Assembly: GCF_000425065.1 (NCBI RefSeq)
Contig: NZ_AULB01000008.1
Span: forward strand, 62,001 to 126,000
Origin: Actinomadura rifamycini DSM 43936
GTDB taxonomy: Bacteria > Actinomycetota > Actinomycetes > Streptosporangiales > Streptosporangiaceae
Length of the DNA: 64,000 nucleotides
Direction of reading: 5' to 3'
Of the stretch, positions 10,344 through 35,526 are shown piece after piece. Within the stretch, counting starts at the first letter, position 1. The number at the start of each line of letters is the position of its first letter. Both the position numbers and the translations under genes were made by a program. A model generated the notes under the pieces. The model had not been told where the DNA came from, ran no database searches, and saw nothing but the letters and a program-made list of their open reading frames with translations.

Positions 10344-10360
10344 TTCCTCGCTAGAGCGTG

Positions 10361-15508: not shown

Positions 15509-16005
15509 GCGGTCGCTCGTCCCCGGGCGGCCGCCTTGCGCGCGGCCGCGAGGCGCACCGCGTCCAGGATCTGCTCGTACCCGGTGCAGCGGCACAGGTT
15601 CCCGGCGAGCGCCTCGCGGATCTCCGCGTCGCTCGGCGCGGGATTGCGTTCGATCAGGTCGTGGGACTGGACGATCAGGCCCGGCGTGCAGAACCCGCAC
15701 TGGACGGCGCCCGCCTCCACGAACGCCTCCTGCACGGGATCGAGCCGCTCCCCGCCCGGCGCCCCCTCGGCCAGCCCCTCGACGGTGCGGACCTCGCGGC
15801 CCTCGGCCTGTCCGGCCGCGACCAGGCACGCGCACGCCGGAACGCCGTCCAGGTACACCGTGCACGAGCCGCACTCGCCCTGCTCGCAGGCGTTCTTGGA
15901 GCCCGGCAGGCCCATGCGCTCCCGCAGCATGTACAGCAGGCTCTCGCCCTCCCACACGTCGTCCACGGTCTCCGCCGAGCCGTTGACGGTGAGGTTCACG
16001 CGCAT
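15505..16005 (-). CDS. Xanthine dehydrogenase, 2Fe-2S subunit
   Basis: 166 residues with both iron-sulfur domains: CEQGECGSCTVYLDG for the plant-type 2Fe-2S cluster (about residues 40-60) and CGFCTPG plus CRCTGYEQI for the helical 2Fe-2S domain (about 100-145). It passes electrons between the Mo and FAD subunits. Its ATG overlaps the stop of the FAD-subunit gene by one base, and its stop overlaps the next start (ATGA), so the four genes are translationally coupled. Confidence 0.93.
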   Translation of the reverse strand: MRVNLTVNGSAETVDDVWEGESLLYMLRERMGLPGSKNACEQGECGSCTVYLDGVPACACLVAAGQAEGREVRTVEGLAEGAPGGERLDPVQEAFVEAGAVQCGFCTPGLIVQSHDLIERNPAPSDAEIREALAGNLCRCTGYEQILDAVRLAAARKAAARGRATA

Positions 16006-16883: not shown

Positions 16884-16893
16884 CGCGTCCCCC

Positions 16894-17760
16894 TCAGTTC
16901 CACGCGTCCGGCGCGCCCGGGGCGTCGTCGTCGAGCACCGTGCCCTCGATGAGCCCGTACGGGCGGTCGGCCGCGTGGTACACCTCGTTGTCGTTGTCCA
17001 TGCCGAACGGCCGCAGGTCGACGAGGACGTGGTGCCGGTTCGGCATCGACATCCGCACCTCGCAGACCTCGCGGCGCTCCCGCAGCACGCGCCGCCCCAT
17101 CGCGTAGAGCGTCTGCTGCAGCGACATGCTGTACGTCTCCGCGAACCCCCTCAGCAGGTGTTCCCGCACCGCCCGGTACGAGTCGTCCCAATCCGCGCCG
17201 GCCCGGCGGTGCCGCCAGGTCGCCGTCACGGCCGTCGCCAGGATCCGGTCGTCCGCGGGCTCCAGCGTCGTGAACTCGTCCTCGGCGAACCCGCGGAACT
17301 CGCTGCCGGTCGAGTTCAGCAGCGCGAGGCCCGTCACCCCCGACACGACCGTCTCCCGCCCGCCCGTCCCGTCGCTGTGGACGAGCGCGGTCCGCACCTC
17401 CGTGCCGTCCCGGACGAACGAGTGCCGCCCGGTGACCCGGCTCCAGGCGTACTCCTCGACCTCCACCCGGGCGTGCGCGACCGGCGGCAGCGCGTCCGCG
17501 AAGTGCCGCGCCAGCCGCAGCCCGAAGGTCTCGATCTCCCCGACCCCGTACCGCTTCGCGAACGCGAACACGGTGTTCTTCTGCGTGTCCGTGGGCAGCA
17601 CCGCCGCGTTGTCGCCGGTCAGATGCGCGGCCTCCATGTCGCCCGACAGCAGCACGCTCACGTTGACGTCCTTGATCCGGTGGACGTCGCCGTCGCGGGT
17701 CACGCGGACGACCCGCGTCTCCGCCTTCCCGTACCGGTTGCCGCCGAGCACGATCGCCAT
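16894..17760 (-). CDS. uox: Urate oxidase (uricase)
   Basis: 288 residues, two tunnelling-fold domains. Visible family blocks are NRYGKAETR (catalytic Lys), LPTDTQKNTVFAFAKRYGV (the Thr of the active site) and NRHHVLVDLRPFG (catalytic His). It oxidises urate to 5-hydroxyisourate with no cofactor. It lies directly after the hydroxyisourate hydrolase gene (5-nt gap) and before the xanthine dehydrogenase genes, matching pathway order. ATG 17760. Confidence 0.95.
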   Translation of the reverse strand: MAIVLGGNRYGKAETRVVRVTRDGDVHRIKDVNVSVLLSGDMEAAHLTGDNAAVLPTDTQKNTVFAFAKRYGVGEIETFGLRLARHFADALPPVAHARVEVEEYAWSRVTGRHSFVRDGTEVRTALVHSDGTGGRETVVSGVTGLALLNSTGSEFRGFAEDEFTTLEPADDRILATAVTATWRHRRAGADWDDSYRAVREHLLRGFAETYSMSLQQTLYAMGRRVLRERREVCEVRMSMPNRHHVLVDLRPFGMDNDNEVYHAADRPYGLIEGTVLDDDAPGAPDAWN

Positions 17761-17765
17761 GCGTC

Positions 17766-18080
17766 CTAGCTCCCTCGGTAGGTCGAGTACGCGAACGGGC
17801 TGACCAGCAGCGGGACGTGCAGGTGCGCGTCCGGGTCGGCGATCGTGAACGCGACCGCCGCCTCGGGGTAGAAGTCCGACAGGCCCGCCGTGTCGAACGT
17901 CAGCCGGTGCACGCCCGCGCCCGGTGCGACGCCCCAGTCGCGGACGCGCCCGTCCCCGTCCGTCCGGGCCTCCGCGAGCGCCGTCCACGCCCCGTCCGGC
18001 TCCCTGCGCTCCAGCAGCACCCGCACGCCCCGCGCGGGCAGCCCGCGGGACGCGTCCAGCACGTGCGTCGAAAGGCTCAC
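17766..18080 (-). CDS. uraH: 5-Hydroxyisourate hydrolase (transthyretin-like)
   Basis: 104 residues from GTG 18080, which follows GGGGAG; a longer frame upstream lacks family similarity. STHVLDASRGLPARGV at the start and the C-terminal tetrapeptide YRGS are the signature of HIU hydrolase, with the catalytic His near the N-terminus. It opens the ring of 5-hydroxyisourate to OHCU. It sits between uraD and urate oxidase genes in one operon. Confidence 0.95.
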   Translation of the reverse strand: MSLSTHVLDASRGLPARGVRVLLERREPDGAWTALAEARTDGDGRVRDWGVAPGAGVHRLTFDTAGLSDFYPEAAVAFTIADPDAHLHVPLLVSPFAYSTYRGS

Positions 18081-18149
18081 GCCGACTCCCCGTGGGGGGA
18101 CGGCCCCCCACACCCCCCGGCAAGAGCCGCGCTCATGCCTTCGCTCCGC

Positions 18150-18614
18150 TCAGTCATGCCGCTCCCCCATCAGCTTCGCCAGCCGCAGATCGACGATCCC
18201 GGCCAGTTCCCGGCGGACGACCGCGCGCTCGGCCTCCGGGTCGTTGCCCAGCCGCTCCCGGAGGGCGGCCAGCATCTCCGCCGCGCTCAGCCCGGTCGCG
18301 CAGATGAGGAACACATGCCCGAACCGCTCCTCATATGCGCGGTTGCCCTCGATCAGCGCGTCCCGAACCTCCGCCGGGGCCCCGTCCGCCCCGGACTGCT
18401 CGCCCCGCGACCACGCCGGGCCGCGACCGCCGCCCCGCACCCGGTCGCCGATCCGGGGGTGCGCGGCGAGCGCCTCCGCGACGCCGGCCCAGTCCAGCCC
18501 GTCCAGCGCCCGCGCCGACGCCGTCCGCAGCTCCGCGGGGCCCGCGCCGCGCACCGCCGCGAGCCACGCGCGGGACGCGCAGCAGGCCCGCAGGTCGTCC
18601 TCGGTGACCGGCAC
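18150..18614 (-). CDS. uraD: OHCU decarboxylase
   Basis: 154 residues, all-helical, with the diagnostic AAHPRIGDR motif that supplies the catalytic His, and a C-terminal IVDLRLAKLMGERHD. It converts OHCU to S-allantoin. It is the first gene of the purine operon and is divergent from pucR. The start is GTG 18614. With uraH and urate oxidase it completes the urate-to-allantoin steps. Confidence 0.93.
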   Translation of the reverse strand: MPVTEDDLRACCASRAWLAAVRGAGPAELRTASARALDGLDWAGVAEALAAHPRIGDRVRGGGRGPAWSRGEQSGADGAPAEVRDALIEGNRAYEERFGHVFLICATGLSAAEMLAALRERLGNDPEAERAVVRRELAGIVDLRLAKLMGERHD

Positions 18615-18694
18615 CCGCGCCTCCCCTCGTCCGTCCTGACTGCAGTAGACCCGGCGGCCCGCGGCCCGGTCGAGGGACAGGACCTCCGAGAAGC

Positions 18695-18710
18695 GGCCCC
18701 GGTCGGGGCC
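18695..18710. promoter_or_regulatory. 16-bp palindrome in the uraD/pucR promoter gap
   Basis: GGCCCCG and CGGGGCC arms flank GT. It is centred in the 162-bp divergent gap and could be a PucR operator, but GC-rich palindromes are common in this genome. Confidence 0.35.
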
Positions 18711-18776
18711 CCGGTTTCGTGCGTTGCTCCAAGCGCGCCCTACACCCGGACCCGTCCCCCTGGGTTAACTGGCCGT

Positions 18777-20320
18777 ATGAGACTGCGTTCCCTCCTCGCC
18801 ATGCCCCTGCGGCTGGAGGTCGTCACCGGGGAGGACGAGCTGGACCGGACGATCCGGTGGGTCGTCACCACCGACCTGCTCGACCCCGGCCGCTACCTGC
18901 GCGGCCGCGAGCTCGTGCTGACCGGCCTCGTGTGGCGCACCGGCCCCGCCGACTCCGAGACGTTCGTGTCGGCGCTCGCCGCGGCCGGGGTGTCCGCCCT
19001 CGCCGCGTGGGACCTCGCGTCCGGCACCGTCCCGGACGACCTCGTCGCGGCGTGCGCACGGCACCGGATCCCGCTGTTCAAGGTCCCCGAGGACGTGGCG
19101 TTCGCGACCGTCACCGAGGAGGTCGTCCGGCGGCTGTCGGGCGCCCGCGCCGCCGACCTGACCGCCGTCCTCGACCGGCACCGCCGGCTCGTCGCGGACC
19201 GGGGCGCGGGCCTGGACGCCGTCCTCGACCTCCTGGACCGCGACCTCGGCATGCGCTGCTGGGTGCTCGCCCCCACCGGCCGCGTCGTCGCCGGGCCGCC
19301 CGCGCCCGCCCCACCGGCCGCGTCGTCGCCGGGCCGCCCGCGCCCGCGCCGCCGGACGCCCTGGCCCGCGCGTTCCTGACCGCGCCGCGGCTCCCGCACC
19401 ACCTCGCCGACCCGGGCGTCACCCTCTTCCCCGTCGCGGAGGACGCCACCTCGCGCGTCGCCGACTGGTTCCTGGCCTGCGCGGGCGACGCCGCCGACTG
19501 GCCCCCCGAGCGCCGCGCCCTCGCCGCCGAGCTCGCCGCGATCGCCGCGCTCGAACGCGCGCGCCTCGACGACCGCCTCGGCGTGGAGGGCCGGGTGGCG
19601 CAGGAACTCGTCCGCCTCGTCGCCGCCGCCGCGCCCCCCGACGAGATCGCCCCCCGGCTCGAACTCGCGGGCCTCGACCCCGCGGCGTCGTTCGTCGCGG
19701 TCGCCGCCACGGGGCGCGGGTCCCTGCGGCCGGGCGAGCTGCGCACGCTCCTCGCGGAGGCCGCGCCGGTCCCCCGCCCCCTCGTGGGCCTGCTCGACGA
19801 CGAGGCCGTCGCGCTCGTCCCCGCCGCCCCGGACGCGGACGTCGCCGGCGGCGTGCAGGCCGCCCTGCGGGCCCTCGCCCCCGGCCTCGCCGGCTCCGGC
19901 ATCGCCGTGGGCGTCAGCGACGTCGTCCCCGCCGCCGAACTGCGCGGCGCCGTCGAGGAGGCGCGCTGCGCGCGCCGCATCGCCGCCGGCCGCACCGACC
20001 CCGTGCGCATCGTCCGGCACGACGAGCTCGCCACGCACGTCCTGCTGCTCGCGAGCGTGCCGGACGACGTCCGCCAGATGTTCGAGATGCGGCTCCTCGC
20101 TCCGCTGCGGAGCTACGACGACGCCCACAAGGCGGACCTGATCCGCACCCTCGAGACGTTCCTGCAATGCTCCGGGTCTTGGACGAAATGCGCCGAACGG
20201 CTGCACCTGCACGTGAACTCCGTCCGGTACCGCATCCAGCGCATCGAGGACCTCACCGGCCGCGACCTGTCCCGCCTGGAGGACCGGGTCGACTTCTTCC
20301 TCGCCCTCCGCCTCGCCTAG
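18777..20320 (+). pseudogene. pucR: PucR-family purine catabolism regulator, frameshifted by a 38-bp duplication
   Basis: The N-terminal PucR sensor domain (MRLRSLLAMPLRLEVVTGED, residues 1-125) and the C-terminal PucR helix-turn-helix (HVNSVRYRIQRIEDLTGRDL, near the end) are in different frames. The shift comes from an exact 38-bp tandem duplication (19271-19308 and 19309-19346). The present frame stops at 19379 after 200 residues. Removing one copy gives a continuous 501-residue protein with normal domain order. It is divergent from the purine operon it should control. Unless this is a sequencing or assembly error, the regulator is inactive, though loss of one copy would restore it. Confidence 0.9.
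19271..19346 (+). repeat. Exact 38-bp tandem duplication inside pucR
   Basis: Two consecutive identical 38-mers, each containing CACCGGCCGCGTCGTCGCC. The period is not a multiple of three, so it moves the frame by +2. It encodes the linker TGRVVAGPPAPA. Confidence 0.92.
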
Positions 20321-20883: not shown

Positions 20884-21744
20884 TCAGGCGGTGTGGCGGG
20901 TGATGGCGGGGACGACCGTGTCCCAGGTGCGGCGCGGGAGGCCCTGGCCGGTGCGCGGGAGGACCAGCAGTTCGGCGCGGGGGATCTCGGCGGCGAGGGC
21001 CTCGGCGTTGCCGAGCGGGAAGAACGGGTCGTCCTCGCCGTGGATCACCAGCGCGGGGGCGGTGATCTCGGGGAGCCGCTCGCGCCAGCGGTCGCCGCAG
21101 TCGAGGGCGGCGAACACGGTGCCCATCTGGTTCGCGCGGTGCGCCTTGCCGGGGTCGTCGCCGGCGGGCGTCCGGTCGTAGACGCGCTCGATGTCCGCGC
21201 GGGCCTCGTCCTCGTCGAAGTCGCGGCCCCCGGTCACGCGGGCGCTCGCGAGCCGGAAGGCGACGACGGACGCCCGGTCGGTCCAGTCGACCGGCGGAGC
21301 GTTCATGAACGCCTCCATGACCTCGGGCGCGTGGTCGGGGAGGTCGGGGTCGACCGGGCCGGGGGCGACGGGCCGGGTGCCGATGAGGGTGAGGGTGGCG
21401 ACGCGGTCGGGGTGGTCCAGCGCGAGGAGCTGGGCGATCCAGCCGCCGGGACCGGCGCCGGCGACGTGCGCGCGGGGCAGGTCGAGCGCGTCGAGCAGGG
21501 CGGCGGCGTCCGCGACGAGGTCGCGGAGGGTGTAGCCGGGGGCGTCCGGGTCGACGGTGGTGGAGCGGCCCACGTCGCGCAGGTCGTACCGGACGACGAA
21601 GCGGCGCAGGGCCGCGAGGCGGGTGCAGAAGGCGTCGGGCCAGGTGAGCATCGTGCCGCCGATGAGCAGGATCGGCGGCTCCGCGGGGTCGCCGAAGGTC
21701 TCCGCGCACAGCTCGACGCCGTTGGCCTTGATGAGTTCTTCCAT
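20884..21744 (-). CDS. Alpha/beta-hydrolase-fold protein lacking catalytic Ser and His
   Basis: 286 residues with the fold order of the alpha/beta hydrolases: PPILLIGGTM, VVRYDLRDVGRSTT, the nucleophile elbow, and the acid loop VIHGEDDPFFPLGN. The elbow, normally G-x-S-x-G, reads GAGPGG, so position 98 is Gly. The usual GHG near the end is TGQGLPRRTW, so the catalytic His is Q267. The protein is full length and in frame, hence a probable pseudoenzyme (binding or scaffolding role) rather than a broken gene. It is followed by the flavin-type protein gene in the same direction. Start ATG 21744. Confidence 0.8.
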   Translation of the reverse strand: MEELIKANGVELCAETFGDPAEPPILLIGGTMLTWPDAFCTRLAALRRFVVRYDLRDVGRSTTVDPDAPGYTLRDLVADAAALLDALDLPRAHVAGAGPGGWIAQLLALDHPDRVATLTLIGTRPVAPGPVDPDLPDHAPEVMEAFMNAPPVDWTDRASVVAFRLASARVTGGRDFDEDEARADIERVYDRTPAGDDPGKAHRANQMGTVFAALDCGDRWRERLPEITAPALVIHGEDDPFFPLGNAEALAAEIPRAELLVLPRTGQGLPRRTWDTVVPAITRHTA

Positions 21745-21815: not shown

Positions 21816-21966
21816 TCAGGACCCGGTGACGGCGGCCGGGGCCGCGGAGATGCTCTCCTCGGCGGCGTCCCGGCGGACGCCGAGGCCGGGGCAAAACGCC
21901 GTCGCCGTCCTCCAGTTCGAGGAGCGCGAGAAGGAGGTGCTCGGTGCCGATGTAGTTCCGACCGTC
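21816..21966 (-). pseudogene. Clp N-domain gene remnant
   Basis: The minus strand reads RNYIGTEHLLLALLELEDG, the hallmark of the Clp N-terminal repeat (family: GHNYIGTEHLLLGL), then a frameshift, then GLGVRRDAAEESISAAPAAV and a stop. No start, no first half of the repeat and no ATPase part are present. It is a leftover of a Clp-N or ClpC-like gene lying between the last operon gene and its terminator. Ends approximate. Confidence 0.7.
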
Positions 21967-21982: not shown

Positions 21983-22912
21983 TCACCAGTCGGCGGCCCC
22001 CGCGAAGGACGTCCGGTGCGGCCGGTAGCCGAGGATCCCGCGGGCCGCCGTGATGTCGAGGGTCCGCTCGACGGCGAGATGGCTGATCGCGTACCGGGTG
22101 ATCCGGGGCGGTTCGGGACGTCCGGCCAGCAGGAACGCGCCCTCGGCGACGGCGGCGACCGGGCGGGCCAGGGCCGCCGGGACGTAGACCGGCCTGGCCC
22201 GGACGCCGCGCTCGCGCAGGATCTCCCGGAACGCCGCGTCGATCGTCACGGGTTCGGCGTCGGCGACGTTGAACGCGCGCGGGACGACGTCCGGGACGGT
22301 CGCGGCCAGCGTGCACGCCTGCACGAGGTTGCCGATCGACGTGAGGCTGACGCGCTGCCCGCCCGTCCCGACCGCGGGCAGCACCGGCCCCCGCACCGCG
22401 GAGAGCACGCGCGGGAGCAGGGTCGTGTCGCCGGGCCCGTAGACGGCGTGCGGCCGCAGGACGACCGCGCCGCGGGAGAGCGCGAGCCGTTCGGCCGCCG
22501 CCTTCGAGGCCCCGTAGGCGTTCATGTAGCGGCGGACGGGCGCCTCGTCCTCGGTCGCCATGGCGCTCGGCCGGAACGGGTCGTACACGCTCGCCGTGCT
22601 GACGTGCACGAACCGCGCGTTCGGGAACGTCGCGAGGGCACTGCGGGTGCCGGTGAGGTTCGCGGCGAACAGGCCGGCGGGGCGTCCCCAGTCGGTGACG
22701 CTCCCCGCGCAGTGGATCACCGCGTCCACGCGGGGCGGGTCGGGCGGCGGGCCGTGCGCGAGGTCCCACGGCCGGTAGGGCGCGCCGCCCACGTGCCCCG
22801 TGGCCACGGCGGGACGGCGGCCGAACGCGAGGACCGTCGCGCCCTCGGCGGCGAGGGCGCGGCACACCGCGCCGCCGACGAACCCGGACGCGCCGGTCAC
22901 GGCGATCCTCAC
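21983..22912 (-). CDS. NAD(P)-dependent epimerase/reductase, OleD-like
   Basis: 309 residues, extended short-chain dehydrogenase: nucleotide loop TGASGFVGGAV at the N-terminus, catalytic YGASK around residue 140, and PHAVYGPGDTTLLPRVL after it, the pattern of 3-beta-HSD/OleD reductases. OleD reduces a 2-alkyl-3-ketoacid to the 3-hydroxyacid that OleC cyclises. GTG 22912 overlaps the stop of the OleC-like gene by 4 nt. It is the last intact gene of the operon. A sugar epimerase role is the main alternative; the OleA/OleC neighbours favour OleD. Confidence 0.75.
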   Translation of the reverse strand: MRIAVTGASGFVGGAVCRALAAEGATVLAFGRRPAVATGHVGGAPYRPWDLAHGPPPDPPRVDAVIHCAGSVTDWGRPAGLFAANLTGTRSALATFPNARFVHVSTASVYDPFRPSAMATEDEAPVRRYMNAYGASKAAAERLALSRGAVVLRPHAVYGPGDTTLLPRVLSAVRGPVLPAVGTGGQRVSLTSIGNLVQACTLAATVPDVVPRAFNVADAEPVTIDAAFREILRERGVRARPVYVPAALARPVAAVAEGAFLLAGRPEPPRITRYAISHLAVERTLDITAARGILGYRPHRTSFAGAADW

Positions 22913-24426
22913 CGCGCCACCGCCTCGCGGAGCCGGTCGCGGTCGAGCTTGCGCGTGCGGCCGGAGCGGGGCAGCTCGGGGAGGACGACGACGCGGTCGG
23001 GCAGCGCGTCGTGGTCGATGACGTCCGGGAGGACGCGGCGGAGCCGTCCGGGCAGGCCGGGCGGGGCCGCACCGGCGGGCACGACGGCCAGGACCACCTC
23101 CTCGTCGCCGGTGGACGGGTCCGGGACGCCGACGATCGCGGCCTCGGCGACGTCCGGGAGCGCGGCGATCGACGGCTCGTACAGGCCCGGGTACAGGTTG
23201 AACTTGCCGCGGATCAGCATGTCCTTCTTGCGGCCGGTGAGGACGAGCCGCCCGCCGTCGAGGCGGGCGAGGTCGCCGGTCGGCAGTTCGTCCAGGGGGT
23301 CGGCGCCGAGGTAGCCGCGGCACAGGTTCGGGCCCGAGAGCAGCAGCTCGCCGTCGTCCGCGACGCGCGCCCCGACGCCCGGCAGCGGCGTCCCGAGCAG
23401 GTCGCCCGGCCCGGCGAACGCGAGCTTCTCCTCCGCCGATGCGATCGCGACCGGAAGGATCTCGGTCATCGCGTACACCGACGCGACCTCGGCCGACGGC
23501 GCCGCCGCCGCGGCCCGCCGCAGGATCGCGGGCGGCGCCGGGGCAGCGCCGAGCAGGACGTGCCGCAGCGTTCCCGGCAGCTCCGGCGTCGCGTCCAGGA
23601 TCTCCGCGAGGTGCACGGGGACGCAGAACGTGTGCGTCGCCCGGCGGTCGCGGAGCAGCCGGGCGAACTCGGCGGGCGGGCAGCCGAGCGGCGGCAGCGA
23701 CCAGCGGGCGCCGGAGATCAGCGTGGGCAGCCCGAGCATGAGCTGGTCGGTGTGGACGACGTCGCCCGGGCCGAGCGGCAGCCGCGCCCGGAACAGGTCG
23801 AGCGCCGCCGCGAGCGATCCCTGCGTGTGGACGACCGCGCGCGGATCCGCCGTCGTCCCGGACGTGAAGATCACGGCGGCGGGCGCGTCCGGATCGGCGT
23901 CCGCGGCGGGTTCGGGCGCCGGGCCGGACGCGAGGCGGGCGAACGCGAGGGAGCCGCGCGGGACGCCCGGCAGCCGCCGGCCCACGTGGACGTGCCGCAT
24001 CGGCCCCGCGCCCGGGACCCGCAGCTCGGCGAGGTTCGGCAGGAGCAGCCCGCGGCGCCGCGCGTACGCCCGGACGGGCCGCAGCCGGCTGCCCGCGTAC
24101 AGGACCGACTCCGCCGCCGACCAGCGGGGCCGCGCCAGCCGCAGCCGCGCGGTGAACATCTCCGGCCCGGCACCCGGGTCGGCGAACACGACCACTCCCC
24201 CGGCGGCGACGACGCCGAGCGCCAGCGCGAGCGACTCCGGCGACGGCCGCACGGAGAACAGCACCCCGTCCCCGGGTTCCAGACCCTCCGATATCAACCC
24301 GTGCCGGACGGCCAGCACCCGCCGCCGCAGTTCCCCGTAGGTGAGCGCGGCGCCGTCCCCCGCGACGAGCGCGACCGCCGCGGACGTCCGCCCCGCCTGC
24401 TCCAGCAACCGCCGAACGAGCGTCAT
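22909..24426 (-). CDS. AMP-dependent synthetase, OleC-like (beta-lactone synthetase candidate)
   Basis: 505 residues, adenylate-forming enzyme: AVIFTSGTTADPRAVVHTQG (P-loop; the usual Lys is Arg), YAMTEILPVAIASAEE (A5, close to OleC YGATE-LPVA), LPTGDLARLDGGRLVLTGRK (A7/A8) and the C-terminal Lys motif PRSGRTRKLDRD. OleC-type enzymes activate a 3-hydroxyacid and close a beta-lactone instead of making a thioester. Its start overlaps the preceding small ORF (ATGA). No carrier-protein domain is attached. An acyl-CoA ligase is the alternative. Confidence 0.75.
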   Translation of the reverse strand: MTLVRRLLEQAGRTSAAVALVAGDGAALTYGELRRRVLAVRHGLISEGLEPGDGVLFSVRPSPESLALALGVVAAGGVVVFADPGAGPEMFTARLRLARPRWSAAESVLYAGSRLRPVRAYARRRGLLLPNLAELRVPGAGPMRHVHVGRRLPGVPRGSLAFARLASGPAPEPAADADPDAPAAVIFTSGTTADPRAVVHTQGSLAAALDLFRARLPLGPGDVVHTDQLMLGLPTLISGARWSLPPLGCPPAEFARLLRDRRATHTFCVPVHLAEILDATPELPGTLRHVLLGAAPAPPAILRRAAAAAPSAEVASVYAMTEILPVAIASAEEKLAFAGPGDLLGTPLPGVGARVADDGELLLSGPNLCRGYLGADPLDELPTGDLARLDGGRLVLTGRKKDMLIRGKFNLYPGLYEPSIAALPDVAEAAIVGVPDPSTGDEEVVLAVVPAGAAPPGLPGRLRRVLPDVIDHDALPDRVVVLPELPRSGRTRKLDRDRLREAVAR

Positions 24427-24641
24427 CGCGCCCCCTCCCCCGGCCGGGCGGCCCGCCCCCGCCGCAGGCGCGGCGCGAGCGCCGCGCCGCCTCCGCGGGC
24501 CCGGCCGGCCGGGCCCGCCCCTGAACAGGCGGCCCGCTCGCGCCGCGGCCGCGGCGCAGGCGCCGCGCTCTCCGCGCGCGTCCGCCGCGGGAGGGTCCGC
24601 GGCCGGACGGTCGGCTCGGGCAAGGCACGCGGGCGCGTCAT
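24423..24641 (-). CDS. Candidate small Arg/Ala/Pro-rich protein coupled on both sides
   Basis: 72 codons from an ATG that overlaps the P450 stop (ATGA) to a TGA that overlaps the OleC-like start (ATGA). It begins MTRPRALPEPTVRPRTLPRR, is rich in Arg, Ala and Pro, and contains no motif I know. The rest of the operon uses the same 4-nt couplings, which argues that ribosomes do cross this stretch. On the other hand the GC-rich, palindrome-rich base pattern could give an open frame by chance. Function unknown. Confidence 0.35.
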   Translation of the reverse strand: MTRPRALPEPTVRPRTLPRRTRAESAAPAPRPRRERAACSGAGPAGRARGGGAALAPRLRRGRAARPGEGAR

Positions 24642-25792
24642 CGGCGGGGCTCCTTGCGGATCGTGAGGCGGCGATAGGTCGGGATCAGGACGTTCCGGGC
24701 GGCGGAGCGTTCGACGATCCGGAGGGGGGCGGCGTCCAGGACGGTGCGGGCCACGCGGCGGATCTGGGCCAGCGCGAGGGGGTAGCCGATGCAGAAGTGC
24801 GGGCCCGCGCCGAACCAGAGGCGGCGCAGCTCGGGCGGGTGCGGGCGGGCGGGGTCGAAAGGCCCGAGGTCGCGGCAGCAGTTGTGCGTGGCGATGAGGA
24901 TCCGGTCGCCCGGCCGGACGGCCGCGCCGCCGATCCGCGACGGCCGGTGCACGCTGCGCAGCATGACGGGCGTCGGGGTGGTGACCCGCATGGCCTCGTC
25001 GATCGCCCGGTCCAGGAAGCCGTCGGACGCGGCGGCGTCGGCGAGCAGCCCGGAGTCGGCGAGGAGGGCGACGAGGCGGGGGGTGAACGTCGCGACGGTC
25101 TCGGTGCCGGTGAGGAAGAACGCCCCGGCGGCGCCGCGCGCCTCCTCCTCCGACAGCCCGAGCGTCCGCATGCGTCCCATGACGGTCGACTCGTCCCCGG
25201 CGGCGTACGCCTTCGCGGCGGCGTCGCCGAGCGGGTCCAGCACCGCGCGGGCGCGCCGGACCTGCGCGGGTGACAGCCGCCGGGTCCGCAGCGAGACGGC
25301 CGAGACGACCCGCTCGCCCTGCTCGAACAGCCGCCGGAACTCGTGCTCGGTGCGCAGCTCCAGGCCGACGACCTCGCTGATCACGGCGCCGGCCATGACG
25401 CGCGCGGCGTCCACGAGGTCGACGGGCGCGCCGCCCGCGAGGCGTCCGGCGAGCCGGTCCAGCGGCCCGTCCAGGACGCGCGCGCACAGGCCGTCCGCGT
25501 AGGCGGGGGTGAACAGGTCGGTGAGGCGGCGCCGGAGGGCCCGGTGCGCCTCGCCCTCCATGTTGAGCAGGACGGACGGCCCCAGCACGGGCGTCCACAG
25601 GTCGCCGGGCGATCCGGGGCCGTCCTTGCGGAACGTCTCGCCGTCCATGAGGACGCCGCGGGCGAGGGCGGCGTCGTTCACGACGACGCCCACGCCGGGC
25701 ACCCGGACGACGGGGCCGCGCCGGGCGAGGCCGCGCAGCAGCGGGTACGCGAACGGGTGCGCGGCGAGGTAGAGGCGGCGTTCCCGGTTCAT
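24638..25792 (-). CDS. Cytochrome P450
   Basis: 384 residues, all P450 landmarks: I-helix FFLTGTETVATF, ExxR in DEAMRVTTP, and haem loop FGAGPHFCIGYPLA with the Cys ligand. The N-terminus starts directly with the A-helix region and there is no signal anchor. It is placed between the GT2 and the OleC-like genes with 4-nt overlaps at both ends, so it probably tailors the product of this pathway. It resembles the divergent P450 at 27688-28974 more than the CYP125-type ones. Confidence 0.9.
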   Translation of the reverse strand: MNRERRLYLAAHPFAYPLLRGLARRGPVVRVPGVGVVVNDAALARGVLMDGETFRKDGPGSPGDLWTPVLGPSVLLNMEGEAHRALRRRLTDLFTPAYADGLCARVLDGPLDRLAGRLAGGAPVDLVDAARVMAGAVISEVVGLELRTEHEFRRLFEQGERVVSAVSLRTRRLSPAQVRRARAVLDPLGDAAAKAYAAGDESTVMGRMRTLGLSEEEARGAAGAFFLTGTETVATFTPRLVALLADSGLLADAAASDGFLDRAIDEAMRVTTPTPVMLRSVHRPSRIGGAAVRPGDRILIATHNCCRDLGPFDPARPHPPELRRLWFGAGPHFCIGYPLALAQIRRVARTVLDAAPLRIVERSAARNVLIPTYRRLTIRKEPRR

Positions 25793-26541
25793 CGGATGTC
25801 GACCTCCGCGGGCCGGTACCGGTGGTCGGCGTACCAGCCGAGGGTCCGGACCAGGCCGAACGCGCGCAGCCGCCGCACCGACCCGTAGACGACCACGTCG
25901 TCGCGCAGCCCGTAGGCGGACGTGAGGTACCGGACGCGGTTGACGAGCGCGCGGTCCTCGTGGACGTCCTCGATGCGGGTGCGCGGGAAGCCGCCCGCGC
26001 GCTCGTACAGGTCGGCGGTGATCGCGAGGTTGCAGCCCGGCATCATCACGTAGGGCCCGAGGTAGAGGGGGTCCTGGTTGCCGGGGCGGAACCGGCCGAA
26101 CAGGGCGGCGGCGTCGATGACGGCGGGCAGCAGCGTGCGCTCCCACATCTTGAGCGGGAACTCGTCGGTGCGGGGCCGCAGCGGCCCGCTGACCAGTTCG
26201 AGCCCCGCGCCGAACGCCCGCTTCACGGCCGCGATCCAGCCGCGGTGCGGCAGGCAGTCGGCGTCGGTGCGCGCGATGTGCGTGGCCCCGGCGGCGATGG
26301 CGTGCCGGAACCCGGTGTCGGCGGCGGCGCCGGTGCCCTTCTCGTCCTCCCGGACGATCCGGACGCCGAAGCCCGGGCCGTCCGCGGCGAACTCCTCGAC
26401 GATCTTCACGGTGGCGTCGGTGCCGGCGTTGTCGACGACGACGAGCGTGAACGCGGTGTCGGTCTGCTCGGCGAGGCGGCGCAGCGTCGCTCCGATCGAG
26501 CGCTCCTCGTTGTAGGCGGGGACGACGACCCAGAGGTCCAT
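25789..26541 (-). CDS. Family 2 glycosyltransferase
   Basis: 250 residues, GT-A fold: WVVVPAYNEERSIGATLRRL at the N-terminus, LVVVDNAGTDAT, and the DxD-type HIARTDADCLPH near residue 95; IEDVHEDRALVNRVRYL supplies the acceptor-site ED. No transmembrane segment is evident. ATG 26541 has GGAG 8 nt upstream; a GTG at 26547 overlaps the OleA-like stop. In the operon it would add a sugar to, or extend, the lipid-type product; the sugar donor is unknown. Confidence 0.88.
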   Translation of the reverse strand: MDLWVVVPAYNEERSIGATLRRLAEQTDTAFTLVVVDNAGTDATVKIVEEFAADGPGFGVRIVREDEKGTGAAADTGFRHAIAAGATHIARTDADCLPHRGWIAAVKRAFGAGLELVSGPLRPRTDEFPLKMWERTLLPAVIDAAALFGRFRPGNQDPLYLGPYVMMPGCNLAITADLYERAGGFPRTRIEDVHEDRALVNRVRYLTSAYGLRDDVVVYGSVRRLRAFGLVRTLGWYADHRYRPAEVDIR

Positions 26542-26543
26542 GG

Positions 26544-27545
26544 TCACAGCTCCGCGAACAGCACGCCGAGGCTGAGGCCGCCCGCGAGGCCGACGAGCGC
26601 GACCCGGTCGCCCGGCCCGCAGCGCCCGTCGGCGACGGCGGTCGCCAGTTGCAGCGGGAGGCTCGCGGACGCGACGTTGCCGTGGTCGGGCAGCGTCACG
26701 ACGAGCTTCTCCGGCGGGACCCCGAGGGCCGCGCGCAGCACCTCCAGGTACGGGACGGTGACCTGGTGGACGGCGACGACCGCGAAGTCGTCCCAGGTCA
26801 GGCCGGTCTTCTCGAGCGCGGTCGTGAACAGTTCGGTGCCGCCCGCGAGGAACGCGTCCTTGAGGCGGCGGCCGTCCCCGCTGAAGTAGGTGTACTCGGG
26901 GTCGCGGGGGTGCATGGAGCCGCCGCCGGGGAGCGTCCCGATCTGCCAGGACGCGGAGGCGGCCGCGAAGTCGCGGTAGAAGATCCCGCCGTCGGGGGCG
27001 GCCTCGACGAGCATCGCGGCGCCGCCGTCGGAGAGGGTGTAGCCGGCGAACGCGTCGACGAACTGGGCGCGGTCGCGGACGCTCCAGCGGATCGCGCGGG
27101 ACGGGCTCTCGCCGGTGCAGACCAGCACGCGCTCGTGCTGCCCCGTGCGGATCAGCGCCTCGGCGGTCTGCAGGCCGTTGAGGAAGCTGTTGCAGGCGTT
27201 CTTGACGTCGAAGACGGGGCAGGTCGCGCCGAGTTTCGCGGCGACGATGTGGGCGGTGGCGGGCTCGACGAGGTCCTGCGACGCCGACCCGAAGACCAGC
27301 AGGTCGACGCCGTCCGGGCGGAGGCCGCGGGCGGCGAGGACGCGGCGGGCGGCGGCGACGGCGAGGTCGGACGCCTGCTCGTCGTCGCGCATGACGTGCC
27401 GGGCGCGGATCCCGGTCATCCGCTCGACGATCGTGGGGTGCGGCCGGTAGCCGGCGCTCTCGCGGGCGATGCGCGCCTCGACCTCGGCGCTGCTCACGGT
27501 CCGCTCCGGCAGGTGCGCGGCGACGGCGGTGATGCGGGCTCTCAT
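26544..27545 (-). CDS. Ketoacyl synthase III-like enzyme, OleA-like
   Basis: 333 residues, thiolase fold with the KAS III triad C118 (FDVKNACNSFLNG), H260 (VAVHQVTVPYL) and N290 (PDHGNVASASL). The stretch DLVEPATAHIVAAKLGATCP before the Cys matches OleA (Y-LEPSTASIVSGNLG) better than FabH. OleA condenses two acyl-CoA chains head to head into a 2-alkyl-3-ketoacid. It is the first gene of the five- or six-gene minus-strand operon and is divergent from a P450. FabH-like priming synthase is the alternative. Confidence 0.8.
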   Translation of the reverse strand: MRARITAVAAHLPERTVSSAEVEARIARESAGYRPHPTIVERMTGIRARHVMRDDEQASDLAVAAARRVLAARGLRPDGVDLLVFGSASQDLVEPATAHIVAAKLGATCPVFDVKNACNSFLNGLQTAEALIRTGQHERVLVCTGESPSRAIRWSVRDRAQFVDAFAGYTLSDGGAAMLVEAAPDGGIFYRDFAAASASWQIGTLPGGGSMHPRDPEYTYFSGDGRRLKDAFLAGGTELFTTALEKTGLTWDDFAVVAVHQVTVPYLEVLRAALGVPPEKLVVTLPDHGNVASASLPLQLATAVADGRCGPGDRVALVGLAGGLSLGVLFAEL

Positions 27546-27687
27546 GGGGTCCCCCGGTTCCTCGTGCTCGGTCGGCGGCCAGGACGGCCAGGTTCGCCGA
27601 CGTGGGCGCCCTCCGGACAGCGAGACCTTACGGAAAGGCCACCGGGGAAGTAGCCCAGTTCGAGGTGAGTACTACCACTTATCCCGA

Positions 27688-28974
27688 ATGAGCGATACAG
27701 CCGGTCCGTCCGGTGACACGATCCGCGACAATCACCTGGTGACCAGGACGAAGACGACCCGGCCGGCACCGCGGCCGGCGACGGGACCGAGCGCGAGGGC
27801 GGCGGCGGAGGCGCGGCGGCACGAGGCTCGGCTGCTGTGGCACGGCAACCGGGGGCTGTTCGCCCTCCTGCAGGCCGGGCGGCGCACCGGCCCGGTGGCG
27901 CGCGTGCCGCGGCTCGGCTGGGTGGTGACCGACCCCGTCCTGGCCCGCCGCGTCCTCAACGACCACGAGCACTTCGGCATGAACGGCGAGGGCGGCGTCG
28001 GCCACCTGTGGACGCAGCTGTTCGGCGCGGAGATGGGGCAGTTCTTCGGGGGCGCGCGGCACACCGAGGTCCGCACCGCCGCCCGCGACCTGTTCACCGA
28101 GGACGCCGCCCGCGCGCTGATCGACCGGTCGCAGGGCGCCCACCACGCCGACCTGGCCCGCCGCCTCGCCGCCGGCGAGGCCGTCGACGTCGCCGACACC
28201 GCGCGCGTCCTCGCCGGCCGGATGGTCGCCGACGTCCTCGGCCTCCCCGCGGACCGGCCGGACGGGACGTACCGGGCGCTGTTCGGCGCCGGGGAGAGCC
28301 TCGCCGCCCTCGCGCTCGGCACCGCGGCCTCGACCGAGCTCGACCCGGCGACCGTCGCGCGGGCCCGCGCGATCGTCGAGGGCATCACCGCGGACGTCCC
28401 CGAGGCGTACCGGACGGGCGGGCCCGAGACCCTGCTCGGCCGCTGCCGGGAGACCGGCATCGGGCTGCCGATGGCGCGCGGCCTCGCGACCCTGCTGGTG
28501 ATCGCGGGCACCGAGACCGGGGCGTCCGGGACCGTCCGGACGGTCGCGCTCGTCCACGACACCGGCGGCCAGCGCGCCCTGCTGGACGACCCGTCCCTCC
28601 TCGACGGCGCGGTGCGGGAGGGCCTGCGGGTCGCCGCGCCCGCGCCCGTCATCGGACGGCACGTCGTGCGGGACGCGGACGTCGCGGGGCGGACGCTGCG
28701 CGCCGGGGAGCGCGTGCTGGTCCTGACGTACCTGGCGACGAACGGCGCGGGACCGTTCGACGTGCGCCGCCCGTACGTCCCGGAGACCCGGCAGCTGTGG
28801 TTCGGCGGGGGCCGCCACCTGTGCCTGGGCGCCGCCGTGGCACGCGTGCAGGTGGCGCGGATGCTGGCGACGCTGCTGGCCGACGGGCGCCCGTACACGA
28901 TCACGCGCCGGCGGGCGGCGCGGCGGGTGCTCGTCCCGTCGTACGCGGAGCTGCGGGTGGCGCCGGCCCCCTGA
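27688..28974 (+). CDS. Cytochrome P450, divergent from the OleA-like operon
   Basis: 428 residues from ATG 27688; GTG 27739 is an alternative and neither has a clear ribosome site, so a leaderless start is possible. P450 landmarks: LVIAGTETGASGT (I-helix), REGLRVAAPAP (ExxR) and FGGGRHLCLGAAVA (haem Cys). Its opening GLFALLQAGRRTGPVARVPR parallels the operon P450 (LLRGLARRGPVVRVPG), suggesting paralogues acting on related substrates. It shares a 142-bp promoter gap with the operon. Confidence 0.88.
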   Translation: MSDTAGPSGDTIRDNHLVTRTKTTRPAPRPATGPSARAAAEARRHEARLLWHGNRGLFALLQAGRRTGPVARVPRLGWVVTDPVLARRVLNDHEHFGMNGEGGVGHLWTQLFGAEMGQFFGGARHTEVRTAARDLFTEDAARALIDRSQGAHHADLARRLAAGEAVDVADTARVLAGRMVADVLGLPADRPDGTYRALFGAGESLAALALGTAASTELDPATVARARAIVEGITADVPEAYRTGGPETLLGRCRETGIGLPMARGLATLLVIAGTETGASGTVRTVALVHDTGGQRALLDDPSLLDGAVREGLRVAAPAPVIGRHVVRDADVAGRTLRAGERVLVLTYLATNGAGPFDVRRPYVPETRQLWFGGGRHLCLGAAVARVQVARMLATLLADGRPYTITRRRAARRVLVPSYAELRVAPAP

Positions 28975-30195: not shown

Positions 30196-32577
30196 CTACC
30201 CGTCGCCGTGCGCGAGGTCGATGTCGTGGCCGTCCAGCCCGCTCCCGGTGACGGTGACCGCGGTCGCCGTCGGCGGGTAGCCGGTCGCGATGACCGTGTA
30301 CGCGCCGCCGTCGAGGTCGGAGAAGGCGTAGGCGCCGTCCGGGCCGGTCGTGGTCGTCGCGACCGCGTTCCCGGCCGCGTCGACCAGCGTCACCCGGGCG
30401 CCGCCGAGCGGCGCGCCCGCGCCGCGCACCGTGCCCCGCACGTGCGCGCCAGCGCGGAGCTCCACCTCGACCCGGGTGGCGGCGCCCGCGCCGACCTCGA
30501 CGGGGACGGCCTGCGGCCGGTGCCCGGGCGCGTTGACCGCGAGCGTCATCGCGCCCGGGACCAGGTCCGCGACGGCGAACTCGCCCCGCGGGCCGGTCTC
30601 CGCCGTCGCCAGGACGTCGCCGCGCACGTCCGTCACGATGACCACGGCCCCGGCGACCGGCGCCCCGCCGGGCACCGACCGCACCGCGCCGGACAGGCCG
30701 CTCGTCCCGCCCAGCAGGACGTCGTGCGCGACCGGCGCGCCGCCGACCGCGATCGACGCGGCCTGCGGCTGGTGGCCGTCGGCGGAGGCGATCAGCACGT
30801 AGGAGCCGGTGTCCGGCGCGGTGAGCACGTACGCGCCGTCGCGGTGCGCGACCGCCCGGCCCACCTGGCGTCCCGCCTGCGAGATCAGCGTCACCGCGGC
30901 GCCCGCCACGGGCGCGCCCTCCGCCCCGCGGACGTGCCCGGTGACGGGGATCCCGGCCGCGCCCGTCCCGTCCGGCGCGCCGGACGGGACGGCCGGGCCC
31001 GGGCCCGCCGGGGCCGCCGGGGTCGCCGGAGCGGCGGCGGCGCCGGGCCCCCGGGCGGCGGCGAGCGCCTCCTCCTTCACGTCGGCCGCGGCGGCCGGCT
31101 CGCGGGCGCCGCCGCCGGGCGCCCCCTCGACCGCCGTACCCGACGCGGGCGGCCGCGCGGCGGGACGGCGCCGCGGGATGAGGGCGGCGATGGCGAAGGC
31201 CAGCAGGGCGGCGCCCGCCCCCGCGCCCATGACCGCCTTGAAGCCGTCCTCGGAGGGCACCGGGACACCGCCGAGGCTCACGACCATCTCGGCGAGGATG
31301 ACGCCCGCCGCGGCGCTGGCGACCGACGTGCCGATGGACCGCATCAGCGTGTTGAGGCTGTTCGCCGCCCCCGACTCGGACGCGGGCACCGCGCCCATGA
31401 TGAGCGTGGGCATCGCCCCGTACGCGAAGCCGATGCCGGCGCTGATGACGCAGGTGGCCAGCACGAGGTGCCAGATCTCCTCCATCAGCAGGATGTTCAC
31501 CCCGTACCCCGCGGCGACGATCAGCGCGCCGGCCATCAGGGTGGTCTTCGGCCCCGCACTCCTGGAAATGGCGGCGGAGACCGGTGCCGTCGCCATCATC
31601 ACCAGCCCGCCGGGCATCATGACCAGGCCCGCGACCAGCAGCGACTCGCCGAGGCCGTGCCCGGTGGCCACCGGAAGCTGGACGACCTGCGGGATGACCA
31701 GCGACATCGCGAACATGGAGAAGCCGATCGCGATCGACGCGATGTTGGTGACGAGCACCTGCCGGCGCGCGGTGGTGCGCAGGTCGACCAGCGGGTCCCG
31801 GACGCGCAGCTCGAACGCGCCCCACACCAGCAGGACGGCGGCGGCCGCACCGAACAGGCCGAGGGTCGTGCCGCTCGTCCAGCCCCAGTCGGCGCCCTGC
31901 GAGATGGCCAGCAGCAGGCAGACCAGACCGATCGCCATGCCGGCGGCCCCGACCAGGTCGAACCGTCCGCCGGTCCGCATCCGCGACTCCGGCACCAGGG
32001 TCAGCACGAGCAGGAACGCGACGCCGCCGAGGCCGGCGGAGAACCAGAACAGGGCGTGCCAGTCGAAGGTGTCGGCGATGAGCGCGGCGGCGGGCATGCC
32101 GAAGGCGCCGCCGACGCCGAGGGAGGCGCTCATCAGGGCGATGGCGGACGGCAGCCGCTCGGCGGGCAGTTCGTCGCGCATGATGCTGATGCCGAGCGGG
32201 ATCACGCCGGCCGACAGCCCCTGCAGCACCCGCGCGACGATCATCGGCGGGAGGGTGTCGCTGAGCCCCGCCGTGACCGAGCCGGCCACCATCGCGGCCA
32301 CGCTGACCAGCAGCATGAGGCGCTTGCCGTACATGTCCCCGAGCCGTCCGCTCACCGGGGTGGCGACGGCCGCGGCGAGCAGCGTGGCGGTGACCGCCCA
32401 GGCGGCGTCCGCCGCCGAGGCGTCCAGCAGCCGGGGCAGGTCGGGGACGATCGGGATCACCAGGGTCTGCATCAGCGAGACCACGATCCCGCTGAACGCG
32501 AGGACCGCCACGACCAGGTTCACCCGCACCGGCGCGGGCACCTCCCGCTCCGCGGACCGGGGTTGCGCATGGGACAT
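30196..32577 (-). CDS. DHA2-type MFS transporter with three C-terminal CarboxypepD_reg-like domains
   Basis: 793 residues from ATG 32577 (GGAGG 8 nt upstream). Residues about 20-505 form a 14-helix MFS exporter: GRLGDMYGKRLMLL (motif A), ARVLQGLSAGVIPLGISIMR (motif C region). After an Ala/Pro linker, residues about 555-790 contain three repeats of a beta-sandwich of the carboxypeptidase-regulatory/CNA-B kind (VTGHVRGAEGAPVAGAAVTL; LSGAVRSVPGGAPVAGAVV; VRGTVRGAGAPLGGARVTL), each with a DGAY/GEFA/DGAYAF strand. The fused domains may lie outside the membrane. Controlled by the TetR gene on shared-operator evidence. Confidence 0.88.
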   Translation of the reverse strand: MSHAQPRSAEREVPAPVRVNLVVAVLAFSGIVVSLMQTLVIPIVPDLPRLLDASAADAAWAVTATLLAAAVATPVSGRLGDMYGKRLMLLVSVAAMVAGSVTAGLSDTLPPMIVARVLQGLSAGVIPLGISIMRDELPAERLPSAIALMSASLGVGGAFGMPAAALIADTFDWHALFWFSAGLGGVAFLLVLTLVPESRMRTGGRFDLVGAAGMAIGLVCLLLAISQGADWGWTSGTTLGLFGAAAAVLLVWGAFELRVRDPLVDLRTTARRQVLVTNIASIAIGFSMFAMSLVIPQVVQLPVATGHGLGESLLVAGLVMMPGGLVMMATAPVSAAISRSAGPKTTLMAGALIVAAGYGVNILLMEEIWHLVLATCVISAGIGFAYGAMPTLIMGAVPASESGAANSLNTLMRSIGTSVASAAAGVILAEMVVSLGGVPVPSEDGFKAVMGAGAGAALLAFAIAALIPRRRPAARPPASGTAVEGAPGGGAREPAAAADVKEEALAAARGPGAAAAPATPAAPAGPGPAVPSGAPDGTGAAGIPVTGHVRGAEGAPVAGAAVTLISQAGRQVGRAVAHRDGAYVLTAPDTGSYVLIASADGHQPQAASIAVGGAPVAHDVLLGGTSGLSGAVRSVPGGAPVAGAVVIVTDVRGDVLATAETGPRGEFAVADLVPGAMTLAVNAPGHRPQAVPVEVGAGAATRVEVELRAGAHVRGTVRGAGAPLGGARVTLVDAAGNAVATTTTGPDGAYAFSDLDGGAYTVIATGYPPTATAVTVTGSGLDGHDIDLAHGDG

Positions 32578-32900: not shown

Positions 32901-32934
32901 TTGAATAAGACTCTTGATTAGACTTGAGTCTCAT
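32901..32934 (+). promoter_or_regulatory. Conserved 34-nt element, copy 1
   Basis: Contains AAGACTCTTGAT then TAGACTTGAGTCTCAT. It is 29/34 identical to 44683-44716 upstream of the tandem P450 genes, and includes an imperfect inverted repeat around AGACT..AGTCT. It lies 18 bp before the KstR-type box at 32953. Confidence 0.65.
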
Positions 32935-32952
32935 TTTCTCTTGTCCGGCCCG

Positions 32953-32966
32953 TGGAACGCGTTCTA
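32953..32966. promoter_or_regulatory. KstR-type box (TGGAACGCGTTCTA)
   Basis: Full match to TnnAACnnGTTnnA, 44 bp before the CYP125-like start; well placed to repress that gene. Confidence 0.7.
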
Positions 32967-33010
32967 CGGTGGGCGGAGCAGCAGCGTCGTCGCAGGCAAG
33001 GAGCGCCGCC

Positions 33011-34270
33011 ATGACCGCCACCGCACCCGAGACCGCCGCACCCGAGACCGCCGTCCCCGCCGGCTTCGACTTCAGCAGCCCCGACCTGATGGCCGAGCGC
33101 GTCCCGCTCGCCGAGTTCGCGGCGCTGCGCCGCACCGCCCGCCCGTGGTGGAACCCGCAGCCACGGGGCGCGACGGGCTTCGACGACGACGGCTTCTGGG
33201 TGGTCAGCAAGCACGCGCACATCAAGGAGATCTCGCGCGACCACGAGCTGTTCTCGGCCGCCCGGAACGGCTCGGTGATCCGGTTCAACGAGCGGTTCGC
33301 GCCCGAGGAGCTGGACGTCCAGCGCGAGAACCTGCTGCTGCACATGGACCCGCCGACGCACGCCAAGCTGCGCCGGATCGTCTCCCGGGGCTTCACCCCG
33401 CGCGTGATCAACGGGCTGCACGACGCCCTGCGGGACCGCGCGGAGCGGATCGTGGCGGACGCGCGGCGCCGCGGCGGCACCGGCGACTTCGTCACCGAGA
33501 TCGCCGCCGAGCTGCCGCTGCAGGCGATCGCCGAGCTGATGGGCGTCCCGCAGGAGGACCGGGGGCGGCTGTTCTCCTGGTCGAACCAGATGCTCGGCTA
33601 CGACGACCCCGAGTACGAGGGCGACCCGGCGTGCGCCGCCGCGGAGATCATCGGCTACTCGATGGAGCTGGCCGAGCAGCGCCGCGGCTGCCCCGCCCAC
33701 GACATCGTCACGAAGCTGGTCGAGGCGGACGTGGACGGCCGGGGCCTCACCGACGACGAGTTCGGCTACTTCATGATCCTGCTCGCGGTGGCCGGCAACG
33801 AGACGACCCGGAACGCGATCACGCACGGGATGATCGCGTTCTTCGACCACCCGGAGCAGTGGGAGCTGTACCGGGCCGAGCGCCCCGCGACGGCGGCGGA
33901 CGAGATCGTCCGGTGGGCGACGCCGGTGACGGCGTTCCAGCGCACGGCCGTCCGCGACACCGAGCTCGGCGGCGTGGAGATCAAGGCCGGGCAGCGCCTC
34001 GCCATGTACTACAGCTCGGCGAACTTCGACGAGGACGTCTTCGACGCCCCGGCCGCGTTCGACGTGCGCCGCTCCCCCAACCCGCACCTCGGGTTCGGCG
34101 GCACCGGCGCGCACTACTGCATCGGGGCGAACCTCGCGCGGCTGGAGATCGGGCTGATCTTCGACGCGATCGCCGACCGGATGCCGGACATCGCCCGGGC
34201 CGGCGAGCCGCGGCGGCTCCGCTCGGCCTGGCTGAACGGGATCAAGGAGCTGCCCGTCCGCTTCCGCTGA
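33011..34270 (+). CDS. cyp125: CYP125-like cytochrome P450 (steroid C26 monooxygenase type)
   Basis: 419 residues from ATG 33011 with AAGGAG 8 nt upstream. It matches mycobacterial CYP125 as I recall it along its length: PAGFDFSSPDLMAERVPLAE, RRIVSRGFTPRVI, LPLQAIAELMGVPQEDRGRL, AVAGNETTRNAITHGM (I-helix), EIVRWATPVTAFQRTA, haem loop FGGTGAHYCIGANLAR (Cys near 370) and SAWLNGIKELPV. CYP125 oxidises the C26 methyl of cholest-4-en-3-one. KstR-type boxes and a FadA5-like thiolase follow the same theme. A related branched-lipid substrate is possible. Confidence 0.88.
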   Translation: MTATAPETAAPETAVPAGFDFSSPDLMAERVPLAEFAALRRTARPWWNPQPRGATGFDDDGFWVVSKHAHIKEISRDHELFSAARNGSVIRFNERFAPEELDVQRENLLLHMDPPTHAKLRRIVSRGFTPRVINGLHDALRDRAERIVADARRRGGTGDFVTEIAAELPLQAIAELMGVPQEDRGRLFSWSNQMLGYDDPEYEGDPACAAAEIIGYSMELAEQRRGCPAHDIVTKLVEADVDGRGLTDDEFGYFMILLAVAGNETTRNAITHGMIAFFDHPEQWELYRAERPATAADEIVRWATPVTAFQRTAVRDTELGGVEIKAGQRLAMYYSSANFDEDVFDAPAAFDVRRSPNPHLGFGGTGAHYCIGANLARLEIGLIFDAIADRMPDIARAGEPRRLRSAWLNGIKELPVRFR

Positions 34271-34317
34271 CCCGTCGCGGCGATCTCACTCTCCGGGACC
34301 GCCCTTCCGACCCGAAC

Positions 34318-35526
<1,209 letters not shown>

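Follow-up and report, generated by a model that had tools for sequence, protein, structure and literature searches.

A conserved actinobacterial operon of OleA-, OleC- and OleD-like genes with a glycosyltransferase and a cytochrome P450, predicted to make a glycosylated beta-lactone

Gene content and conservation of the operon

In this study, we analysed a stretch of 64,000 nucleotides from Actinomadura rifamycini DSM 43936 (contig NZ_AULB01000008.1, positions 62,001 to 126,000), hereafter called the window, and focused on a five-gene operon that contains three ole-like genes. The contig is part of a genome of 8.39 Mb, to which Actinomadura and Spirillospora are the closest among named bacteria. 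The five genes span 21983-27545 on the minus strand and are transcribed in the order OleA-like beta-ketoacyl-ACP synthase III (KAS; here the synthase), family 2 glycosyltransferase (GT2), cytochrome P450 (P450 'a'), OleC-like ligase and OleD-like short-chain dehydrogenase/reductase (SDR) (Table 1). The initial annotation had given the positions and types of these genes, including the GT2 and the P450 inside the operon and a second, divergent P450 ('b'), and all of them were found as placed. Neighbouring genes overlap by 4 bases at three of the four junctions, which is the pattern of a single transcription unit; the exception is the junction from the P450 to the OleC-like gene.

Table 1. Coordinates of the operon genes and adjoining features in the window
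Feature	Position	Strand	Remarks
OleA-like KAS III, 333 amino acids, first operon gene	26544..27545	-	Pfam ACP_syn_III/ACP_syn_III_C; predicted head-to-head condensing enzyme
GT2 glycosyltransferase	25789..26547	-	Pfam Glycos_transf_2 3.2e-22; start ATG 26541 or GTG 26547
P450 'a'	24638..25792	-	Pfam p450 4e-9; heme Cys and ExxR intact
OleC-like class I adenylate-forming enzyme, 505 amino acids	22909..24426	-	Pfam AMP-binding 1.5e-50; predicted beta-lactone synthetase
OleD-like NAD(P)-dependent SDR, GTG start	21983..22912	-	Pfam Epimerase 3.9e-27; predicted 2-alkyl-3-oxoalkanoate reductase
Divergent P450 'b'	~27739..28974	+	Pfam p450 3.9e-8; start uncertain, longest open reading frame from 27469; heme Cys and ExxR intact
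GC-rich spacer, 211 bp, 90% GC, from P450 'a' stop to OleC-like start	24427..24637		contains a 71-amino-acid open reading frame, probably spurious

The operon was compared with 80 named loci from other genomes, which were the best 80 of 241 confirmed, so this sample leans to close kin. In 72 of the 80 loci, the KAS, GT2, P450, OleC-like and OleD-like genes occur in this order, on one strand and within about 6 kb. Because all five genes are kept together in this way, the operon is not a chance arrangement but a real one. Among the 75 loci with at least 6 kb of downstream sequence, the partner genes were found at similar counts (GT2 70, P450 'a' 73, OleC-like 70, OleD-like 73), and P450 'b' was a divergent neighbour in 35 of the 71 loci having at least 2.5 kb upstream. 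The eight exceptions were L095, where the OleC-like gene is reversed; L071 and L101, which run off the contig; three Nonomuraea and Actinomadura craniellae, with split operons; and L069, with the synthase and P450 'b' alone. At 7043-7632 of another locus, L185 (G012:C2:1511400-1527400), an internal deletion has placed the ~159 N-terminal residues of the synthase directly before the 48 C-terminal ones of the OleD-like protein, and this is a lost operon.

The spacer between P450 'a' and the OleC-like gene is long for this operon type. Measured between alignment ends in 68 other loci, the gap had a median of 15 bp and was at most 113 bp in 66 of them, with L101 (336 bp) and L107 (467 bp) as the two others. 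The open reading frame at 24423-24638 was considered as a gene and rejected, because it is of low complexity and the gap is short in nearly all other loci.

In a wider survey, 31 of the 394 genomes of the class matched the synthase at E<=1e-60, and 15 of these lie outside the family. The synthase is adjoined by GT2, OleC-like and P450 genes in 11 of the 15, nine of which also have an OleD-like gene; the remaining four were one oleB-linked cluster, one synthase with a P450 only, and two with neither. Eight of the 11 are Streptomyces, with the order KAS-GT2-OleC-P450-OleD (one without an OleD match). The five-gene pathway occurs across several families of actinobacteria, among them the one to which Streptomyces belongs. 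In a genome of family f26 (locus L174 of G285, 2264-8990), the cluster holds two GT2 genes.

A shorter pathway was considered for the Thermomonospora-type loci, which seemed to lack the OleD-like and P450 genes, and for the Nonomuraea loci, which seemed to lack the OleC-like gene; it was rejected, as genome searches located the absent genes elsewhere, except for the GT2 in three Nonomuraea. In all five split genomes of the Thermomonospora type that were examined (four of one genus, and A. craniellae), one locus carries the synthase together with the OleC-like gene, and a second locus holds the GT2, P450 'a', the OleD-like gene and the divergent P450 'b'. The three split Nonomuraea genomes all have their OleC-like gene at a separate place, and a GT2 search of them at E<=1e-15 gave no match. 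Given this absence of the GT2, the core of the pathway looks like the OleA-, P450-, OleC- and OleD-type enzymes, with the GT2 adding a tailoring step that is not always kept. In Nonomuraea dietziae (G515, C1:5735571-5736305), a GT2 gene carrying one in-frame TAG was observed.

The GT2 and OleC-like proteins also occur fused. In four genomes of the genus Thermomonospora they lie in one open frame, and among the 120 listed of 157 homologues, four proteins had the order GT2-OleC and two the order OleC-GT2. That both orders are seen suggests that sugar transfer and the ligase reaction are functionally connected.

The motifs of the GT2 and of both P450s are well conserved. Any match at all was given by 139 (GT2), 120 (P450 'a') and 115 (P450 'b') loci; the rows scored are those that passed filters for length and identity, and some genes are represented repeatedly among them. 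The DAD motif of the GT2 was found in 137 of 137 scored locus rows, the heme Cys of P450 'a' in 87 of 87, and that of P450 'b' in 55 of the 56 rows whose alignment reaches the site. The AlphaFold2 model of the GT2 (pLDDT 84.9) has a GT-A fold and matches many GT-A enzymes with varied acceptors; therefore, the acceptor is not indicated by the model. Searches of solved structures with both P450s returned many CYPs with similar low scores and gave no substrate clue. We also considered P450 'b' as a P450-derived glycosyltransferase activator (TIGR04515), and this was dropped since it scored 71.8 against a cut-off of 343 and retains the heme Cys.

The condensing enzyme, the ligase and the reductase

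Cys118, His260 and Asn290, which the initial annotation had read in the synthase, were correct, and Glu94 was additionally found at the position of OleA Glu117, followed by Pro95. The counterparts in OleA are Glu117 followed by Pro, Cys143, His285 and Asn315, and all positions of this tested set are matched in the window synthase. According to PMC7064751, Glu117 followed by Pro occurs in all but two of the OleA proteins of that paper. The Glu-Cys-His-Asn set was present in 148 of 150 KAS-type locus rows (107 distinct sequences; partial locus L185 excluded), and the two exceptions were the window genome's own FabH and FabH-like proteins. It was also present in 18 of 18 rows (13 distinct) closer to a second OleA-like protein, which the same genome encodes on contig C32. 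In four FabH rows, the position of OleA Glu117 is occupied by F, F, M and G.

In a tree of 51 rows, the 4 FabH rows were split from the 47 OleA-type rows at 100/99. The Xanthomonas rows 3ROW (OleA) and the near-identical 3FK5 (deposited as 3-oxoacyl synthase III) fell on the OleA side, with a long Xanthomonas OleA branch (2.33) that the program flagged as a possible long-branch effect. The tree included twelve rows of the second OleA type, three of which (L170, L176, L177) had no other ole gene found adjacent. Together with the residue set, this phylogeny, which the initial annotation had proposed as a check, places the window synthase with OleA and not with FabH.

Comparisons with solved structures pull the other way. 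The sequence search puts FabH first (138 bits for 4RYB, then 132), with 3FK5 at 120 and OleA 3ROW at 116 bits, and the AlphaFold2 model of the synthase (pLDDT 93) gave a near tie between the OleA and FabH folds. On this evidence the synthase might be a FabH-type starter enzyme, and the product of the operon an unrelated acyl glycoside. The tree, the Glu117 set and the linkage to OleD-like and OleC-like genes argue against such a role, and we regard it as improbable. The condensing enzyme is OleA-like, and head-to-head activity is predicted for it.

The initial annotation had also called the ligase OleC-like, and this assignment is weak by score and supported by phylogeny and by a shared residue loss. 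The ligase scored 74.7 bits to the OleC model NF045786, below its cut-off of 900, and a higher 148.6 bits to a long-chain acyl-CoA ligase model; pairwise, it scored 102 bits to a fatty acyl-CoA ligase of its own genome and 73 to the OleC of that genome. These values count against an OleC function. The OleB-linked OleC of the window genome, at 583 bits to NF045786, is likewise under 900, and placing the OleC-like protein by pairwise scores alone could not decide. A search of solved structures with the C32 OleC returned none named OleC among the best 60 of 206 matches.

Ligase trees were built with a site-mixture model and with outgroups all taken from the window genome. The clade of window-type ligases joined the OleB-linked OleC proteins at 99/95 with 10 other ligases and at 100/99 with 26; in the latter tree it is a sister clade to OleC and not nested inside it. 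The Gly before the A10 Lys was present in 25 of 26 other ligases, in 1 of 16 window-type rows and in 0 of 8 OleC rows. The ligase is OleC-like but divergent, and it is a predicted beta-lactone synthetase.

A different product should be weighed here. The OleA- and OleD-like enzymes may make a 2-alkyl-3-hydroxy acid, and the ligase may convert this acid to acyl-AMP or acyl-CoA, so that it can be passed to an acceptor or to the glycosylated partner; the product would then be a glycosylated, mycolate-like lipid rather than a beta-lactone. The A8 hinge Asp, which is usual in thioester-forming ligases, is retained in 16 of 16 window-type ligases, whereas seven of eight OleCs carry Glu there, and this residue speaks against lactone closure. 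The higher pairwise score to acyl-CoA ligases, the fusion of the GT2 to the ligase in both orders and the wide conservation of the operon, as for a structural lipid, also favour the mycolate-like product. The grouping of the ligase with OleC and the A10 glycine loss that they have in common stand against it, and we consider it unlikely, though a serious competitor of the beta-lactone.

The OleD-like SDR had two OleD models as its best NCBIfam matches, at 119.1 and 117.5 bits. The value of 117.5 bits is below the cut-off of 580 for NF042422, and the C32 OleD, with 390, is also below it. In a tree with only 8 SDR outgroups, the window protein grouped tentatively with OleD, at no more than 83/85.

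OleB and the second ole cluster of the genome

No OleB gene is present in the window operon, as the initial annotation had noted; its statement that OleB is absent did not extend to the genome, since the genome search found an oleB-like gene on contig C32. There, a separate cluster holds OleA-, OleC- and OleD-like genes together with the OleB-like gene. The best matches of the latter were of the haloalkane-dehalogenase type (158 bits, under the cut-off of 241), and no OleB model was among its matches; we call it OleB because of these matches and its position in the cluster. PMC7158056 cites a work whose title gives OleB as kin to haloalkane dehalogenases. The C32 locus (L117, G000:C32:17000-36999; 4775-18978) also shows, by eye, a large polyketide synthase-like gene, which precedes the ole-like genes, and a fatty acyl-AMP ligase, so it is possible that this is a polyketide-fed olefin cluster.

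The relation of OleB to the two cluster types was surveyed in 150 genomes of the family, 48 of which had a KAS match at E<=1e-40. Among the 48, 39 carried the window-type synthase (at least 66% identity over the aligned part), 13 the second type (41-47%) and 4 both; the genome with the deletion remnant (G012) is counted among the 39 and among the 35 with the window type only. OleB was searched at E<=1e-40, with 49 of the first-look candidates scored in the larger genomes, and was found in 13 of the 48 genomes, and these are precisely the ones that carry the second OleA type. Under the same search, it was found in 0 of the 35 genomes having only the window-type synthase, so that no oleB is tied to the window type of operon, in agreement with the initial annotation. 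These genomes are related, and therefore the 35 without OleB are not 35 independent events. OleB travels with the other cluster type and is clearly decoupled from the window-type operon.

Because an OleB-like gene exists in the window genome, we considered whether the C32 OleB opens or decarboxylates the lactone in trans, so that olefins would be made from the operon's product in this A. rifamycini strain. We think this very improbable: no OleB was found at E<=1e-40 in 35 of the 39 window-type genomes of the family, OleB follows the other OleA type in 13 of 13 cases, and the C32 cluster is itself equipped with OleA-, OleC- and OleD-like genes. The alpha/beta hydrolase encoded at 20884-21744 on the minus strand, directly downstream of the operon, might stand in for OleB; relatives of it follow the operon in 26 of the 80 named loci. 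The hydrolase matches macrolide-esterase models best (242.6 bits, under the cut-off of 420) and not haloalkane dehalogenases like those of the C32 OleB, and no relative scored downstream in the other 54 loci, some of which end at contig ends. Of all the explanations considered, we give this one the least credence.

Proposed product, known systems and neighbouring genes

The following steps were deduced from known Ole chemistry, as described in PMC7064751 and PMC7158056. The OleA-like enzyme would join two acyl-CoAs head to head into a 2-alkyl-3-keto acid, the OleD-like SDR would reduce the ketone, and P450 'a' would hydroxylate an acyl chain. The OleC-like ligase would adenylate the carboxylate and then close the beta-lactone, and the GT2 would glycosylate a hydroxyl group, probably as the lactone is closed, because the GT2 and the OleC-like protein occur fused. 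The beta-lactone would be retained as the end product, since no OleB seems to belong to the pathway. On balance, judging from the sequences, we favour the prediction that the operon makes a hydroxylated, glycosylated long-chain beta-lactone.

We further speculated, tentatively, that the sugar-bearing product of this OleA-initiated pathway, beta-lactone or mycolate-like glycolipid, might be a standing envelope lipid of actinobacteria and not a strain-specific antibiotic. The bacteria concerned would be Actinomadura, Streptosporangium, Thermomonospora, Catellatospora and many Streptomyces, a large part of the actinobacteria. The GT2-OleC unit, which would have been fused at least twice, might then physically couple glycosylation to lactone closure of the OleC type. 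If the mycolate-like glycolipid is the true product, it would belong to the envelope of bacteria that are not known for such a lipid. If the glycosylated beta-lactone is true, it would represent a lipid class for which we found no isolated example, and inhibitors of serine hydrolases might be obtained from it. Enzyme pairs that can be tested are offered by the fused proteins and by the split operons.

Such a product had been regarded as a new type in the initial annotation, and this did not hold. Smith et al. 2020 described an OleA-GT-OleC-P450-OleD set in Actinoplanes atraurantiacus and proposed a hydroxylated, glycosylated beta-lactone, noting that this genome has no oleB candidate (PMC7064751). 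According to the same paper, the OleA of A. atraurantiacus was active on p-nitrophenyl hexanoate, and with limited recoverable protein no condensation product was obtained. Likened by this published description, the window operon agrees with the A. atraurantiacus cluster in its five gene types, the lack of oleB in the cluster and the predicted product. In the window, however, the P450 precedes the OleC-like gene, the second P450 is divergent, and the genome carries an oleB-like gene in another cluster; the domain order listed for A. atraurantiacus is that of the Streptomyces loci. Among the matches listed in the open-licence PMC literature, we found no isolated product of such a cluster, only the 2020 prediction. 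Because the product was already proposed in 2020, the window operon is a further, well-supported and broader member of a predicted, uncharacterised kind. The present analysis adds its wide distribution, its sharp separation from OleB, the matching of the separated parts of split operons and the fusions in either order.

In PMC7064751 and PMC7158056, the OleA pathways covered lead to olefins or to a few beta-lactones. Like the oleABCD olefin pathway, including the C32 cluster, the window operon has OleA-, OleC- and OleD-related enzymes and the Glu117-Cys-His-Asn set; it differs in lacking OleB, in having a P450 and a GT2, and in that its proteins form separate clades. By the description in PMC7064751, the nocardiolactone and lipstatin clusters (oleACD without oleB) share condensation, reduction and lactone closure without decarboxylation, and differ from the window operon in that the latter has the GT2 and P450 set.

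Some other genes of the window were observed near the operon. Directly after the OleD-like gene, a short frame at 21820-21960 on the minus strand reads RNYIGTEHLLLALLE, which we take to be a candidate remnant resembling a Clp N-domain. At 30196-32577, also on the minus strand, lies a transporter of the major facilitator superfamily type, with a long C-terminal part that by eye is like repeated carboxypeptidase-regulatory-like modules. A P450 and a steroid 3-ketoacyl-CoA thiolase (above the cut-off of NF005889) at 32924-36631 resemble steroid catabolism and are apparently unrelated to the operon.

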